DNA from: Haloferax litoreum
Lineage (GTDB): Archaea > Halobacteriota > Halobacteria > Halobacteriales > Haloferacaceae
Direction: 5' to 3'
DNA: 64,000 nucleotides
Assembly (NCBI RefSeq): GCF_009674605.1
Contig: NZ_WKJO01000003.1
Span: 1-64,000 of the forward strand
Made by a program: the position numbers and the translations under genes. This document shows positions 33,018 to 39,291 of the stretch, in pieces (the first letter of the stretch is position 1; every line of letters begins with the position of its first letter). The notes below the pieces were generated by a model. That model saw only the letters and a program-made list of their open reading frames with translations, did not search any database and was not told the DNA's origin.

Positions 33018-34328
33018 ATGGGAGACAACAGAACGATGGGTGAGAGTGACAGAGAAGACGTGACGCGACTACCGAGGCCGGAGTTGCGAGACGTACAGGA
33101 CGAACGAGTCCGGGCAGTCGTCGAACACGCGTACGAGAACGTCGAGTTCTATCGACGCAAACTCGACGACGCGGGGGTACATCCGAGCGACGTTCAGAGC
33201 GTCGATGACCTCTCGAAGCTTCCGTTCACGACGAAAGAGGACTTCCGCGACGAATATCCCACGGGGTTGTTCGCCGTGGACATGGAAGACGTCGTGCGAA
33301 TTCACGCCTCTTCGGGCACGACTGGGAAGCCGAAAATCGTCGGCTACACGCAGGACGACTTGGACGTGTGGCGCGAAGTGATGTCACGCGGGTTCCGCGG
33401 CGTGGGGCTAACGAGCGACGATTCGCTTCAGAACGCGTACAGTTACGGTCTCTTCACGGGCGGGTTTGGGTTCCACGACGGCGCGACGTCGATGGGGATG
33501 ACCGTGATTCCGACTGGGGGTGGAAACACCCAGCGACAGGTCGAGATGCTCGTAGACCTCGACGTCGATTCGATTTGTCTCACGCCATCGTACGCCCTCT
33601 ACCTCGCGGAAGTCGCCGAAGACATGGGGTACGACCCGGCCGACTTATCGCTCTCGACGATTCTCTACGGCGCAGAACCGTGTACCGAACCCATGCGACG
33701 GGAAATCGAGGCGAGATTCGACGCGACAGCAGTCGAGAACTACGGTCTCTCGGAGATAATCGGGCCGGGTGTCGCCATCGAGTGTCTGGAACAAGCAGGG
33801 ATGCACATCTGGGAAGACCACTTCTACCCGGAGGTCATCAATCCCGAAACCGGAGAACCGGTGGCAGACGGCGAGGAGGGCGAACTCGTGTTCACGACAC
33901 TCACGAAACAAGCCCTCCCGGTGCTCCGCTACCGCACGGGCGACCTGACGACCCTCGACTACGAGACGTGTGACTGCGGGCGCACCGCAGTCCGAATGGA
34001 CTCGGTCACGGGCAGAGCAGACGACCTACTCATCGTCCGCGGCGTGAACCTCTATCCGAGCGAAGTCGAATCGGTCGTCCTCGAATTCGACGAGGTTGCA
34101 CCACACTACCGCATCGACCTCCGGCGAGCGAACAACCTCGACCGTCTCGACTTGACGGTCGAACTCACGGACGGGTTCGACGGGTCGCGCGACGAACTCG
34201 AACGGCGCATCCGAAAGCGTCTCTCGAACGTCCTGTCGTTCAGTCCTGACCAGGTGACGCTCGTCGAACCGGGCGGTATCGAGCGGACGAAAGTCGGGAA
34301 AGTTCAGCGAGTCTACGACCACAGATGA
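33018..34328 (+). CDS. paaK: Phenylacetate-CoA ligase (second copy)
   Basis: A 436-aa PaaK paralogue with the same motifs as the copy at 24276: HASSGTTGKPK, YGLSEIIGPG, YRTGDLT and RGVNLYPSEVES. Short stretches of DNA are nearly identical between the two copies (around 24424-24480 and 33191-33247, and 24554-24600 and 33319-33366), while other parts differ much more. It starts 29 bp after the importer operon, suggesting that uptake and CoA activation are co-expressed. ATG at 33036 is an alternative that would remove six residues. The two copies could handle different aryl acids. Confidence 0.92.
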   Translation: MGDNRTMGESDREDVTRLPRPELRDVQDERVRAVVEHAYENVEFYRRKLDDAGVHPSDVQSVDDLSKLPFTTKEDFRDEYPTGLFAVDMEDVVRIHASSGTTGKPKIVGYTQDDLDVWREVMSRGFRGVGLTSDDSLQNAYSYGLFTGGFGFHDGATSMGMTVIPTGGGNTQRQVEMLVDLDVDSICLTPSYALYLAEVAEDMGYDPADLSLSTILYGAEPCTEPMRREIEARFDATAVENYGLSEIIGPGVAIECLEQAGMHIWEDHFYPEVINPETGEPVADGEEGELVFTTLTKQALPVLRYRTGDLTTLDYETCDCGRTAVRMDSVTGRADDLLIVRGVNLYPSEVESVVLEFDEVAPHYRIDLRRANNLDRLDLTVELTDGFDGSRDELERRIRKRLSNVLSFSPDQVTLVEPGGIERTKVGKVQRVYDHR

Positions 34329-34383: not shown

Positions 34384-34770
34384 ATGGACATAGAGGAGTT
34401 CTTCGAGAGTATGCCGTTCGCCCGGTTACTCGGCGTCGAGATTACCGACGTCGAAGACGGACACGCAGAGGGCTACATCGAGATGCGCGAGGACCTGTCG
34501 TGGAACGCAGACCGGGTAATGGCCCACGGCGGCGTCACGTTTACACTCGCAGACACCGTCGGCGGGGCGGCACTCGTCAGCCGAGTCGACCAGCCAGTTC
34601 CGACGATAGACATGCGCATCGACTACCTGAGCGCAGGGACCGGTGACCTCCGGGCAGAGGCAGACGTAGTCCGTCTCGGCGGTGACGTGGGCACTGTCGA
34701 CGTAGACGTGTACGCGACGACAGACGACACCCTCATCGCGACCGCCAGAGGCGTGTACAAGACTGGGTGA
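34384..34770 (+). CDS. PaaI-family hotdog thioesterase (second copy)
   Basis: A 128-aa hotdog-fold protein with the PaaI motif around NADRVMAHGGVTFTLADTVGGA (His/Gly stretch, Asp in LADT) and the strand PTIDMRIDYL. It should hydrolyse acyl- or hydroxyphenylacetyl-CoA esters and protect the free CoA pool. It follows paaK by 55 bp on the same strand, and an AT-rich acttaaca element about 28 nt before the ATG may give it its own promoter. It differs clearly from the thioesterase at 25650, so the two are not recent duplicates. Confidence 0.87.
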   Translation: MDIEEFFESMPFARLLGVEITDVEDGHAEGYIEMREDLSWNADRVMAHGGVTFTLADTVGGAALVSRVDQPVPTIDMRIDYLSAGTGDLRAEADVVRLGGDVGTVDVDVYATTDDTLIATARGVYKTG

Positions 34771-34879: not shown

Positions 34880-36328
34880 ATGGAATACAGTGGCCCAACG
34901 AGTCTCTACATCGACGGAGACTGGGTAGATGCTGAATCTGGCGAGACCATCGAGACGTTCGACCCTGCGACTGAAGCGCGCTACGCAGAAGTCGCCTGTG
35001 CCGAGGAGACGGACGTAGACGCCGCTGTCGAAGCAGCGAAGTCTGCAGCAGCACGCGGTAGCGAGTGGCGAACGATGGACCCATCCACGCGTGGCGAGAG
35101 ACTCCGGGCGATGGCCGACGCCATCGAGGCACGGAAAGACGAGATTTCGCTCGTCGAATCCCACGATAACGGGAAGACGCCGTTCGAAGCGGGGATGGAA
35201 GTCCAGATGGTCGTCGACACGTTCCGTTACTACGCTGGCTGGACCGACAAAGTGACCGGTGAGTATAACGCCGTCCCCGGCGACCGCGTAAACTTCACGA
35301 CGCGCGAACCACTCGGCGTCACCGGCCACATCGTCCCGTGGAACTACCCCTTCCAACTCGCTGGCCGGAGCATCGCACCGGCACTCGCCTGCGGGAACAC
35401 CGCTGTCGTGAAGCCCTCCAGTCAGACCCCCCTTTCGGCCCTCTACTACGGTATCGCAGCAGAAGAAGCAGGCCTCCCCGAGGGCGTCGTCAACGTCGTC
35501 CCCGGAAGTGGCTCGACGGCAGGGTCGGCCCTCGCCTCCCACTCGGATGTCGAACACGTCACGTTCACCGGTAGCACCGAAATCGGGAAGCGTGTCATGG
35601 CTGACGCCGCAGAGAACGTCACCGGTGTCACGCTCGAACTCGGCGGGAAAGGTCCGCACGTCGTCTTCCCCGACGCCGACCTCGACGCCGCCGCGAAAGG
35701 TGTCCACTACGGTATCTTCATGAACGCCGGCCAGATGTGCTGGGCCGGGTCCCGTCTCCTCGTCCACGAGGACGTCGCCGACGAACTCGTCGAGAAGATT
35801 GTCCAGCGGGCCGAGGCGACGCCCCTCGGGTCCGGCATCGACGACGACGGCCGGATGGGTCCCGTCGTGAGCGAAAACCACATGGAAGACGTACTCGAAT
35901 ACATCACCATCGGTGTCGAAGAGGGCGCAACCGTCGCCTGCGGTGGCGGCGTCGACGAAGACAAAGAGTCTGGCTACTTCGTCGAACCGACGGTCCTGAC
36001 TGACGTGACGAACGACATGACCGTCGCCCGTGAGGAGATTTTTGGTCCCGTCCTCTCCGTCATCGAGTTCAGCGACCAAGACGAAGCAATCGAACTCGCC
36101 AACGACTCGCCGTACGGCTTGCTCGCTGGCATCTGGACGCAGGGTCTCTCTCGTGCCCACCAGGTCGCCGACGCCCTCGACTACGGCATGGTTAGCGTCA
36201 ACGAGTATCCGGTCACGTTCCCGCAGACGCCCTTCGGCGGTACGAAACAGAGTGGTCACGGCCGCGAGCAGGGCGAAGAAGCAGTCCGCGAGTTCACGCA
36301 GGCGAAGAACATCAACCTCAACATCTGA
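34880..36328 (+). CDS. Aldehyde dehydrogenase family protein
   Basis: A 482-aa NAD(P)-dependent aldehyde dehydrogenase. Visible are the substrate/NAD segment VPWNYPFQLAGRSIAPALACGNTAV (Asn in WNYPF), the general-base Glu in LELGGKGP, the catalytic Cys in NAGQMCWAGSR, and the late EIFGPVLSV and FGGTKQSGHGRE blocks. All catalytic residues are present. It may oxidise the semialdehyde produced in the PaaZ step (inference from its place between paaK and paaABCD and from the stand-alone MaoC hydratase). Betaine- or other aldehyde substrates fit the family too. Confidence 0.9.
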   Translation: MEYSGPTSLYIDGDWVDAESGETIETFDPATEARYAEVACAEETDVDAAVEAAKSAAARGSEWRTMDPSTRGERLRAMADAIEARKDEISLVESHDNGKTPFEAGMEVQMVVDTFRYYAGWTDKVTGEYNAVPGDRVNFTTREPLGVTGHIVPWNYPFQLAGRSIAPALACGNTAVVKPSSQTPLSALYYGIAAEEAGLPEGVVNVVPGSGSTAGSALASHSDVEHVTFTGSTEIGKRVMADAAENVTGVTLELGGKGPHVVFPDADLDAAAKGVHYGIFMNAGQMCWAGSRLLVHEDVADELVEKIVQRAEATPLGSGIDDDGRMGPVVSENHMEDVLEYITIGVEEGATVACGGGVDEDKESGYFVEPTVLTDVTNDMTVAREEIFGPVLSVIEFSDQDEAIELANDSPYGLLAGIWTQGLSRAHQVADALDYGMVSVNEYPVTFPQTPFGGTKQSGHGREQGEEAVREFTQAKNINLNI

Positions 36329-36537: not shown

Positions 36538-36708
36538 TCAGCCGAACTTCTCGAACGGTTCTTGACAGTCGTTGCAGAAGTGCATCGACCGGCAGAGCGA
36601 CGGGCCTTTCGGGTGCTCTCGTTCGGTGTTCGTCCCGTTACAGTACGGGCACTGGGCACCCTTCGTCTCGCCCGTCGTCGTCACACTCGGGTCGAATGAG
36701 CGTCGCAT
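36538..36708 (-). CDS. Detached PaaD-type zinc ribbon protein
   Basis: A 56-aa protein with four Cys ligands in CPYCN and CNDC, an SLCRSMHFC segment and an ending EPFEKFG. This layout matches the C-terminal zinc ribbon of bacterial PaaD, where it is fused to the DUF59 domain. Here the ATG lies 2 bp after the stop codon of the DUF59-only PaaD gene, so the PaaD protein is encoded in two parts. PaaD is needed for maturation of the phenylacetyl-CoA epoxidase, probably in metal or Fe-S handling. It is short and easily missed in automatic annotation. Confidence 0.75.
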   Translation of the reverse strand: MRRSFDPSVTTTGETKGAQCPYCNGTNTEREHPKGPSLCRSMHFCNDCQEPFEKFG

Positions 36709-36710
36709 GG

Positions 36711-37136
36711 TCACACACTCAGGCCGAATTCACGGAGGTCTTTCCGTCCCTGTTCGGTCACCATCGCGGTGGTCCACGCGGGACTCCACACGAGATTGAG
36801 CATCACGTCTTCGACACCGTCGACAGCGCTGACGGCATCCCGGATGTCGTCTTCGAGCATGCTTCGTGCGGGGCACCCGGTGTACGTCAGGGTCATGTCG
36901 ATTCGTGCTTCGCCCGTCTCCGTTTCGACCCCGACGGCGTAGATGAGACCCAAGTCGACGATGCTGATGGGCATCTCGGGGTCTTCGACCGAGTAGAGCG
37001 CGTCCCAGACGTCTCGTTCGATACCGACTGCACCGTCGCCGGTGGCCGGGAGTTCGTCGTGGGCCGTTCCCTCCGCGTAGTCCGTGTGTGCACAGAGGTT
37101 CGCGTCGGTCTGGTCGGGGTCGAATTCACTACTCAT
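36711..37136 (-). CDS. paaD: Phenylacetyl-CoA epoxidase subunit PaaD (DUF59 domain only)
   Basis: A 141-aa MIP18/DUF59-family protein. The family core runs from about residue 43: YSVEDPEMPISIVDLGLIY, TLTYTGCPARSMLEDDI with the conserved Cys, and the closing VEDVMLNLVWSPAW. An N-terminal part of about 40 residues is extra. Bacterial PaaD has a C-terminal zinc ribbon; in this protein it is missing and is encoded by the next ORF (36538-36708). The gene overlaps the upstream paaC by 8 bp. The role is assembly/maturation of the epoxidase. Confidence 0.9.
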   Translation of the reverse strand: MSSEFDPDQTDANLCAHTDYAEGTAHDELPATGDGAVGIERDVWDALYSVEDPEMPISIVDLGLIYAVGVETETGEARIDMTLTYTGCPARSMLEDDIRDAVSAVDGVEDVMLNLVWSPAWTTAMVTEQGRKDLREFGLSV

Positions 37137-38001
37137 CGTCTGGGTCCTTCATAATCTTCATCGCCGAGTGGCGACCGAGTTCACGGTAACTCTTCGTGAA
37201 CTCGTCGAAGAGGTCGAACCAGGCGTCGGTGTGCGACTGGTCGCGACCGGTTTCGTCGGGGAGGTCGAAGTCCGCGTGGTGGACGTCGTACTGTTCGGGC
37301 AGTTGTGCCTCCTCGACGTGCAGTCCAACGGATTCGAACGCGGAAACGACTTCGTCGAGCCACGCCTCGCGCATGGAGAGGAGGTTCTCCGTGCGGAGGC
37401 CGAGTTCGTCGATACGTTCTTCCATCTCGTCGTCGGTCGGCGAGAAGAGCGTCAGCGCGTACGGGAGGAGGCGGTCGACTGCGTCCTGCATCCGTGTTCG
37501 GGTGTCGTCGTCCTCACAGAGGCGTTCGAGCCAACTCCGAGCGTGTTCGCGGTGGTAGCGCTCTTCGGAGAGCACCTTCTCCACGCGGTCACGCAGACGC
37601 GGGTACGACGAGTCTTCGAGTGCCTTGAGACGGACGAACTCGGCTTCGTCGTAGAGGTACGACCGGACGACTAAGTCGGCCCAGTCACCCTCGTCGAAGG
37701 GGAGTTCACAGAGCGTACTGTGTCGCCAATCGCCGGCGTCGCGTTCCCAGATGAGGTCCGGTTCTTCGTAGCCGAAGTCTTCGAGCAGGTCGTACCAGAG
37801 GCGCGCGTGGCCCAGTTCGTCCTGTGCGATGTTCGCGACGGCGATGTCGGACTCGATGGTCGGTGCGCGAACTTGCCACTCAGTGTAGCGTTCGGCGATG
37901 ACGAACTCGTCGTCTGCCAGAGTGAACAGGAGCGTCTCAACTGCTTCGCGCTGTTCGTCCGAGAGGTCCTGTGGACCCGGAAGTTGTTGTGCTGCTGCCA
38001 T
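37129..38001 (-). CDS. paaC: Phenylacetyl-CoA 1,2-epoxidase subunit PaaC
   Basis: A 290-aa ferritin-like helical protein of the PaaC family, the structural partner of catalytic PaaA. In well-studied bacterial PaaC the diiron ligands are lost, but here two ExxH motifs are visible: DELGH (E62, H65) and EERYH (E147, H150), plus acidic residues in SYLYDEAEF (near 118-121). It may therefore still bind metal. The start codon overlaps the paaB stop by 1 bp (TAATG), and its end overlaps paaD by 8 bp, so the operon is tightly coupled. Confidence 0.92.
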   Translation of the reverse strand: MAAAQQLPGPQDLSDEQREAVETLLFTLADDEFVIAERYTEWQVRAPTIESDIAVANIAQDELGHARLWYDLLEDFGYEEPDLIWERDAGDWRHSTLCELPFDEGDWADLVVRSYLYDEAEFVRLKALEDSSYPRLRDRVEKVLSEERYHREHARSWLERLCEDDDTRTRMQDAVDRLLPYALTLFSPTDDEMEERIDELGLRTENLLSMREAWLDEVVSAFESVGLHVEEAQLPEQYDVHHADFDLPDETGRDQSHTDAWFDLFDEFTKSYRELGRHSAMKIMKDPDDE

Positions 38002-38330
38002 TAGTCGTCACCGTCCACGACGGCCCGTCGCTGTTGTTCTGCCTCTGCCTGTTCGTCTTCGGACGCCGCGACTTCCTCTGCCGCCGCCTCGAAGTTGTAC
38101 GTCATCGCCCAGCGGTACGACTTGTCCGTCGTGCCACCGAAGGCGACGTCTTCGGTGTCGACTTCACCGATTTCGTCTTTCGGGACGACCCACAGACTGT
38201 TGGTGGGCATCCGTCGTGCGTGTTGTACTTCTGCGAACAGCAACGCCATCTCCCGGTCGGGAGCGTGGACGTTGCCGCAGTGCGTGTGGTAGTCGCCGGC
38301 CTTCTTCTGTCGGAATACTTCCCAAATCAT
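38001..38330 (-). CDS. paaB: Phenylacetyl-CoA 1,2-epoxidase subunit PaaB
   Basis: A 109-aa PaaB protein, a small bridging subunit of the epoxidase complex. Typical blocks are MIWEVFRQKKAGDYHTHCGNV, HAPDREMALLFAEVQHARR and SLWVVPKDEI. The acidic Ala/Glu-rich tail after residue 80 is longer than in many bacterial forms and fits a halophile. ATG at 38330 is chosen because PaaB proteins start here with MIWEV/MxWEVF; the upstream part of the frame is the reverse of other sequence. It lies 13 bp after paaA and shares 1 bp with paaC. Confidence 0.92.
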   Translation of the reverse strand: MIWEVFRQKKAGDYHTHCGNVHAPDREMALLFAEVQHARRMPTNSLWVVPKDEIGEVDTEDVAFGGTTDKSYRWAMTYNFEAAAEEVAASEDEQAEAEQQRRAVVDGDD

Positions 38331-38343
38331 CGAATCACTCCGT

Positions 38344-39291
38344 TTAGTCCGCCGCCTGCGGGCTTTCGCCGCCACCGTACAGGCGCTGTTCGTGGCTGTC
38401 CATCGATTCACGGACCCAGGCGACTGCTTCCTGAGCCTTCTTGCGGCCGTCGATTTGGCCGAGTCCGGGTTCGTACTCGTTCTTCGCAATCTGGAAGAAC
38501 TCGTCCCAGTTCAGTTCGTCTTCGGCGACGTTGTAGGTGCCATCGTCGTTCTTCTCGATGGTCGGCGTGTCCGGGATTTCGAGTCCGTACTTCTCGGCTT
38601 TCGGGATGTAGGTGTTGAGGAACGCACGGCGCAGTTCGTCGTTGGACTTCTGCTTGAGGCCGACTTCACTGGCGAATCCGTGGTGCGTCGACTGCTTGTC
38701 GGTCGGACCGAAGAACTGGATGATGCGCGGCCACCACTTCTCGAAGGCTTCCTGCGCCATCTCCTGTTCCTTCTTCGACCCGGTCATCAGTTCGTGGAGC
38801 ATCGCTTCGCCGTGTTTGACGTGGAAGCCCTCTTCGAAACAGACTTTGTCCATCGCGTGGGCGTAGGGTTCCCACGAGGTGCTCTTGAGCGTCGCCTGCC
38901 GGCGCATCGCGGCACCGTCGACGAAGAACGCAATCATCGGCGTCTCGACCCACGACTCCATCGGGTAGTGGAAGCAGTTGAGGAACTTGCCCTGCCCGTT
39001 GGCGAGTTCGTCGAGCATCTCGTCACGGGTCTTGATGCCGAGACTCTCCGCGGCACGGTAGAGCAGTTGGCCGTGTCCGAGTTCGTCCTGCACCTTCGCC
39101 GAGAACGCCAGTTTTCGTTCGAGACTCGGTGCCTGACGGATGAAGGGTCGTTCGAGGTACGCCCCCATTATCTCACTGTTCGCGTGGAACTGTATCATCC
39201 GGGTCGCGGCCTTGCGGTACTCCTCCGGCATCTCGTCCTTCGGAGAGAACTCGCGCGGTCCCGCCCGTTCTTTGACAGTTTCGAGGTCCAT
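38344..39291 (-). CDS. paaA: Phenylacetyl-CoA 1,2-epoxidase catalytic subunit PaaA
   Basis: A 315-aa diiron monooxygenase subunit that inserts oxygen in the aromatic ring of phenylacetyl-CoA to give ring 1,2-epoxyphenylacetyl-CoA. The expected ligands are all visible: E40 (FHANSEIMG), E70 and H73 (QDELGHGQ), D125 (FVDG), E154 and H157 (CFEEGFHVKHGE). Length is close to bacterial PaaA. ATG at 39291 begins at the conserved start; the longer open frame upstream covers the promoter. First gene of paaA-paaB-paaC-paaD-zinc ribbon. No paaE reductase follows. Confidence 0.95.
   Translation of the reverse strand: MDLETVKERAGPREFSPKDEMPEEYRKAATRMIQFHANSEIMGAYLERPFIRQAPSLERKLAFSAKVQDELGHGQLLYRAAESLGIKTRDEMLDELANGQGKFLNCFHYPMESWVETPMIAFFVDGAAMRRQATLKSTSWEPYAHAMDKVCFEEGFHVKHGEAMLHELMTGSKKEQEMAQEAFEKWWPRIIQFFGPTDKQSTHHGFASEVGLKQKSNDELRRAFLNTYIPKAEKYGLEIPDTPTIEKNDDGTYNVAEDELNWDEFFQIAKNEYEPGLGQIDGRKKAQEAVAWVRESMDSHEQRLYGGGESPQAAD

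Follow-up and report, generated by a model that had tools for sequence, protein, structure and literature searches.

The window analyzed here, a 64,000-nucleotide stretch of DNA from Haloferax litoreum, contains a paaABCD cluster whose PaaC has acidic or His residues at each of the six iron-binding positions of the catalytic subunit PaaA. The best reading of these data, which we regard as probable, is that the gene encodes a genuine PaaC that keeps a diiron site and brings a second metal center to each PaaA–PaaC pair. In the available text of two earlier reports, PaaC is termed a structural subunit and all iron outside PaaE is assigned to PaaA (PMC4498308, PMC9493321); that description, as given there, derives from the E. 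coli and Klebsiella structures. A pathway survey from 2026 treats PaaA and PaaC as markers in the portion of its text that is available (PMC13186573). No metal-competent PaaC was reported among the papers found in a literature search by title and abstract opening, nor is one mentioned in the available parts of PMC4498308, PMC13186573, PMC2653477 and PMC9493321. Should PaaC prove to contain metal in haloarchaea and other lineages, the iron counts and electron-transfer schemes of the enzyme would change, and PaaA and PaaC would have evolved as a pair of diiron subunits in which the site of one partner decayed along some branches. As intact, half-decayed (EKHDLH) and lost sites all occur in living lineages, the decay of a metal site is directly testable.

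Identity and gene neighborhood of the window paaC

The paaC open reading frame lies on the minus strand (Table 1), and the same frame of the plus strand is interrupted by a stop. Its product scored 163.3 bits against TIGR02158, above the curated PaaC cut-off of 133.35, and matched Pfam PF05138; against the PaaA profile TIGR02156 it scored 82.2 bits (cut-off 280), which places it outside PaaA. The location between paaB and paaD is that expected of paaC and is common to E. coli and the window. A PF05138 search of the H. litoreum genome returned the window paaA and paaC as the only two genes of the PaaA/PaaC family. PaaC of Haloferax larsenii is 85.2% identical to the window protein and its annotated gene order is the same; the start of the window paaA was set by comparison with H. 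larsenii PaaA and that of paaB was inferred from the H. larsenii annotation, with the last base of paaB being the first base of paaC (a 1-base overlap).

Table 1. Coordinates of the paa genes and of the candidate PaaC ligand codons in the window
Feature	Position	Strand	Remarks
paaA, 315 aa, catalytic subunit	38344..39291	-	303.3 bits vs PaaA cut-off 280; six ligands and Lys68 present
paaB	38001..38330	-	NF041867 paab_haloarch
paaC, 290 aa	37129..38001	-	residues at the six PaaA ligand positions: E32, E62, H65, D118, E147, H150
Codon of E32 (PaaA E42 equivalent)	37906..37908	-	helix 15-45 of model
Codons D61-E62-L63-G64-H65 (first ExxH)	37807..37821	-	helix 49-74 of model
Codon of D118 (PaaA D126 equivalent)	37648..37650	-	helix 107-128 of model
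Codons E146-E147-R148-Y149-H150 (second ExxH)	37552..37566	-	helix 134-161 of model
paaD, DUF59 part only	36711..37136	-	TIGR02159 profile positions 1-89 of 146
56-aa CxxC...CxxC protein, NCBIfam name PaaE (NF041869)	36538..36708	-	matches C-terminal end of PaaD, TIGR02159 99-143 of 146

Since the paaD gene covers only the first part of the TIGR02159 profile and the 56-aa protein covers the last, haloarchaeal PaaD looks, on these profile matches, as if it had been split into two genes. The 56-aa protein is identical to E. coli PaaD at 12 of 38 positions, and PaaE is a misleading name for this haloarchaeal family. Beside the epoxidase genes and on the opposite strand are a PaaK gene scoring above its haloarchaeal cut-off (33018–34328, plus strand), a hotdog thioesterase gene (34384–34770, plus strand) and an aldehyde dehydrogenase gene (34880–36328, plus strand).

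Ligand positions and structure model

The iron ligands of E. coli PaaA are E42, E72, H75, D126, E155 and H158, according to the available text of PMC4498308, and the window PaaC has E32, E62, H65, D118, E147 and H150 at these positions. The original prediction that the DELGH and EERYH motifs are intact was borne out (residues 61–65 and 146–150), and the remaining two carboxylates, E32 and D118, lie beyond both motifs and are also present. In the alignment of the window PaaC with its own PaaA (25% identity over 235 positions) the six ligand positions are identical, no gap falls within or beside the motifs, and E32 and D118 stand on ligand positions. The same matches were obtained in HMMER alignments to the solved PaaA chains 4iit_A and 4ii4_A, and the family alignment likewise places the six residues on the PaaA ligand positions. 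The protein thus shows the pattern of a carboxylate-bridged diiron protein of ferritin-like fold, with two ExxH motifs and two more carboxylates on four helices.

An AlphaFold2 model of the window PaaC (pLDDT 90.8, pTM 0.89) was built from 72 sequences, consisting of the window PaaC, 60 other PaaC and 11 PaaA; the 60 came from the 80 loci nearest in PaaA to Tsukamurella, where PaaC is intact in 0/80. In the model the six predicted ligands lie in four separate long helices (Table 1), and their side chains are expected from the fold to converge on one site. The nearest solved folds were E. coli and Klebsiella PaaC (Z 29.7–30.6, rmsd 1.7–2.0), and these solved PaaC chains are of the ligand-lost kind. 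E. coli PaaC (PDB 3pvr and 1otk; Z 30.6 and 30.5), a structural subunit of 1,2-phenylacetyl-CoA epoxidase, thus agrees with the window protein in family and fold. The next match was SSO1313 of Sulfolobus solfataricus (PDB 4mud; Z 23.1), a PaaA/PaaC-like protein whose residues aligned with the window ligand sites are Glu, DELNH, Asp and EESH. BoxB and aldehyde-deformylating oxygenases ranked after the PaaA/PaaC chains in both Foldseek and VIA-align.

Conservation of the site among haloarchaea

PaaC scored above the cut-off in 110 of 242 genomes drawn from the class to which the window belongs. The haloarchaeal set was assembled from the listed matches that passed the cut-off, a single match that fell below it and two plasmid loci, with identical sequences merged; PaaC was recognized in all 113 genome stretches fetched for it. 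The resulting 115 distinct sequences form 51 clusters at 80% identity, with a mean identity of 57%, and every one carries a carboxylate or a His at each ligand position: 113 read E,E,H,D,E,H and in the other two Asp replaces the first Glu. All six ligands fall within the 32 of 290 window columns that are conserved at 95% or more across this set (hypergeometric P 1.2e-6). Five of the six, together with D61 and E146, which adjoin ligands, are conserved at 100%.

Intact, half-decayed and lost sites in bacterial PaaC

The window protein had been proposed to differ from bacterial PaaC, in which the iron ligands were thought to have been lost, with the first motif carrying Leu and Gln, for example. 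This is accurate for E. coli PaaC, where the six residues are C,L,Q,D,A,H, compared with E,E,H,D,E,H in the window PaaC. It does not describe bacterial PaaC as a whole, as intact sites were found in 27 of 129 distinct sequences from Actinobacteriota (a proportion that is not a frequency, about 80 of the 129 having been picked because their PaaA is closest to that of Tsukamurella), 4 of 68 from Bacteroidota and one of two from Deinococcus; all six proteobacterial sequences sampled had lost the site. An even draw of 198 actinobacterial genomes gave 47 PaaC over the cut-off: 25 with the full E,E,H,D,E,H set, one in which Glu instead of Asp is the sole departure from it, and 21 with a lost site (18 Actinomycetes-type and three others). 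The intact proteins of Deinococcus sp. QL22, Actinobacteriota and Bacteroidota have the same six ligands as the window PaaC; they are bacterial and occupy other branches of the PaaC tree. Sampling covered Haloarchaea, Actinobacteriota, Bacteroidota, two Deinococcus and six Proteobacteria.

A simple division into intact haloarchaeal and lost bacterial PaaC was overturned by the phylum-wide draws and by lower-scoring matches. It had rested on early samples in which none of 79 Actinomycetes-type sequences, 31 distinct Bacteroidota sequences (mostly best-scoring) and six Proteobacteria was intact, and it held at first because these samples consisted of the top-scoring relatives of known types.

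Between the two states stands a group of Bacteroidota PaaC (part of L292-L316) in which Lys stands at E72 and either Leu or Ile at E155, e.g., E,K,H,D,L,H; H75, D126 and H158 are retained, and E42 sometimes. PaaC of Deinococcus psychrotolerans reads D,E,H,D,K,H. Lys thus replaces a ligand carboxylate in several decaying lineages (E72K in Bacteroidota, E155K in D. psychrotolerans), a replacement that would fit the site having once been occupied by a cation. PaaA itself reads E,E,H,D,E,H in 80/80 of the loci neighboring Tsukamurella (79 actinobacterial and one from Saprospiraceae). The positions that best separate intact from lost PaaC are E42, E72, H75 and E155; D61, E146 and H150 of the window numbering are conserved even in the lost set.

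Phylogeny of PaaC

A tree of 82 rows was computed with the ligand columns masked and with 11 rows of PaaA and the PaaA-like X1 (see below) as outgroup. PaaC formed one clade (100/100) with the haloarchaeal PaaC inside it. A quick tree of 103 rows with the ligand columns unmasked gave the same order and placed the window protein with PaaC at 100 SH-aLRT, with several long-branch warnings. From the base, the PaaC tree comprises haloarchaeal PaaC, two divergent haloarchaeal rows, an actinobacterial group, groups of Bacteroidota, Deinococcus, and a clade of 32 rows (100/100). The actinobacterial group is intact save for one nested lost clade (L371/L373/L374); every row of the 32-row clade, which includes E. 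coli, Pseudomonas and Actinomycetes, is lost; and all 11 outgroup rows are intact. The minimum number of changes between intact and lost on the 82-row tree is 4. AU tests, with groups named after a tree had been seen, rejected monophyly both for intact PaaC (p 7e-102) and for lost PaaC (p 5e-47).

Because intact PaaC is paraphyletic and the intact state is common to the PaaA outgroup, the intact site is most simply taken as ancestral within PaaC on this rooting, in which the PaaA/X1 outgroup sits on a long branch (and the 82-row tree drew a long-branch warning). The same comparison would most simply imply at least four losses in the sample, one of them before E. coli, Pseudomonas and Actinomycetes. 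The suggestion that the haloarchaeal site reflects a state from before PaaA and PaaC specialized stood in part: the site appears to be ancestral within PaaC, whereas the protein that carries it is already a separate PaaC. Since the haloarchaeal protein stays inside the PaaC clade with the ligand columns masked, the window gene is regarded as a separate PaaC that kept the site.

Function of the PaaC site

In the reading that we favor, the PaaC site would bind a dinuclear iron (or Fe/Mn) center and each PaaA–PaaC pair would then have two metal centers. Epoxidation would be performed at the PaaA center; the PaaC center would more likely be auxiliary, in a redox or structural role, than a second phenylacetyl-CoA epoxidase. 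The derived form would be the enzyme of the E. coli type, whose PaaC has an incomplete ligand set.

The main alternative is that the PaaC site is metal-free, a structural relic whose residues are kept for helix packing, for solubility at high salt or for the PaaA–PaaC interface. The heterodimer interface in E. coli is formed by helices B and C of both subunits, as described in the available text of PMC9493321, and the conservation of D61, E146 and H150 where other ligands are lost is what such a relic might show. The residues at the E42, E72, H75 and E155 positions, though, are retained jointly in 113 of the 115 haloarchaeal sequences (Asp standing for E42 in the other two) and in 27 actinobacterial ones, and adaptation to salt does not explain the intact sites of Actinobacteriota, Bacteroidota and Deinococcus. 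We consider a relic unlikely, while giving it real weight.

An intact PaaC might instead be a second catalytic oxygenase center acting on phenylacetyl-CoA or another acyl-CoA, as the presence of all six ligands and the position of BoxB and the aldehyde-deformylating oxygenases after the PaaA/PaaC chains in the fold lists would allow. The window PaaC, which matches PaaA at the six ligand positions and branches with PaaC, is devoid of the PaaA lysine bridge (E49 and K68) and of Phe108, which orients the substrate in PaaA, having Y39, I58 and C98 at these places. Among the haloarchaeal PaaC, position 58 is Ile, Asn or Val in 113/115, position 98 is Val or Cys in 94/115 and position 39 is Tyr in 93/115. 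With the lysine bridge and Phe108 missing, the PaaC site is probably not a copy of the epoxidation site, and PaaC itself is unlikely to be a further epoxidase for phenylacetyl-CoA; moreover, all 37 haloarchaeal PaaA sampled have a complete site of their own. A second oxygenase center is on these grounds improbable. That the haloarchaeal ligands were regained, e.g., by gene conversion from PaaA, is conceivable for genes that are neighbors and paralogues, yet very improbable, given that haloarchaeal PaaC remains in the PaaC clade (100/100) with the ligand columns masked, that intact PaaC occurs across several lineages, and that repeated recovery of four ligands is much less probable than their loss.

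Electron supply and PaaE

In E. coli a 1071-base paaE reductase gene adjoins paaD, whereas the H. litoreum genome had no PaaE reductase over the cut-off and gave only partial matches of at most 53 bits; it does contain candidate 2Fe-2S ferredoxins. PaaE was likewise not found in the stretches fetched around 10 intact actinobacterial, four intact Bacteroidota and two haloarchaeal loci; the genes for PaaA, PaaB, PaaC and PaaD lie together in the 10 actinobacterial and four Bacteroidota loci, as they do in one Deinococcus locus, also with no PaaE found. Two of the intact actinobacterial loci look like phenylacetate clusters, as they continue into paaZ-paaH-paaK-like genes.

Across the 134 PaaC rows with searched genomes, a PaaE-like match, defined in this analysis as at least 150 bits, accompanied 52 of the 82 rows with a lost site and none of the 52 with an intact one. 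For Actinobacteriota genomes the figures were 0/25 intact and 17/18 lost (Fisher p 4e-11, in a test that ignores kinship). On the tree there are only two to three independent contrasts between the state of PaaC and PaaE, and no pairing was significant, so the tie between absence of PaaE and an intact PaaC is a lead. Some rows speak against a strict coupling: no such PaaE-like match was found, in genomes of unstated completeness, for 26 Bacteroidota rows with a lost site or for the nested lost clade L371/L373/L374. In one genome with a lost PaaC and without PaaE (G526), PaaC lies close to a contig end.

A bolder scenario, which we think doubtful, is that the ancestral epoxidase had two centers, PaaA performing the epoxidation and the PaaC diiron site storing or relaying electrons from a separate ferredoxin, and that in later lineages the dedicated reductase PaaE was acquired and the PaaC center decayed. 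In this scenario the haloarchaeal PaaC might have a diiron-tyrosine redox site, as Y39 occupies the position of Glu49 in the PaaA lysine bridge.

Other PaaA/PaaC-like proteins

A search with the window PaaC found no PaaC in viral contigs. Eleven IMG/VR contigs classed as viral (L231-L241) carry a PaaA with the six ligands, the start of the gene being missing in one (L241), and PaaB, PaaC, PaaD and PaaE were not recognized in the 5–11 kb of each. A PaaA without a partner subunit on putative viral contigs would be odd.

A second PaaA-like/PaaC-like pair, here X1 and X2, was observed in haloarchaea (L203-L221, L230, L004) and on a Thermus plasmid (L005). In the annotated haloarchaeal loci a metal-sulfur assembly (PaaD-like) gene and a PaaB-like gene stand between the two. 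X1 has all six ligands in 21/21 distinct haloarchaeal rows; X2 has Lys for the first Glu ligand in 20/20 haloarchaeal rows and also on the Thermus plasmid. Two similar actinobacterial pairs have an X2 that reads E,K,H,G,E,T (L375 in G466) and E,K,H,S,E,T (L376 in G451). Finally, on an Alteromonas plasmid (L012) and a Burkholderia plasmid (L225), a PaaA/PaaC-family protein gene adjoins a radical SAM gene, outside any paa cluster as annotated.
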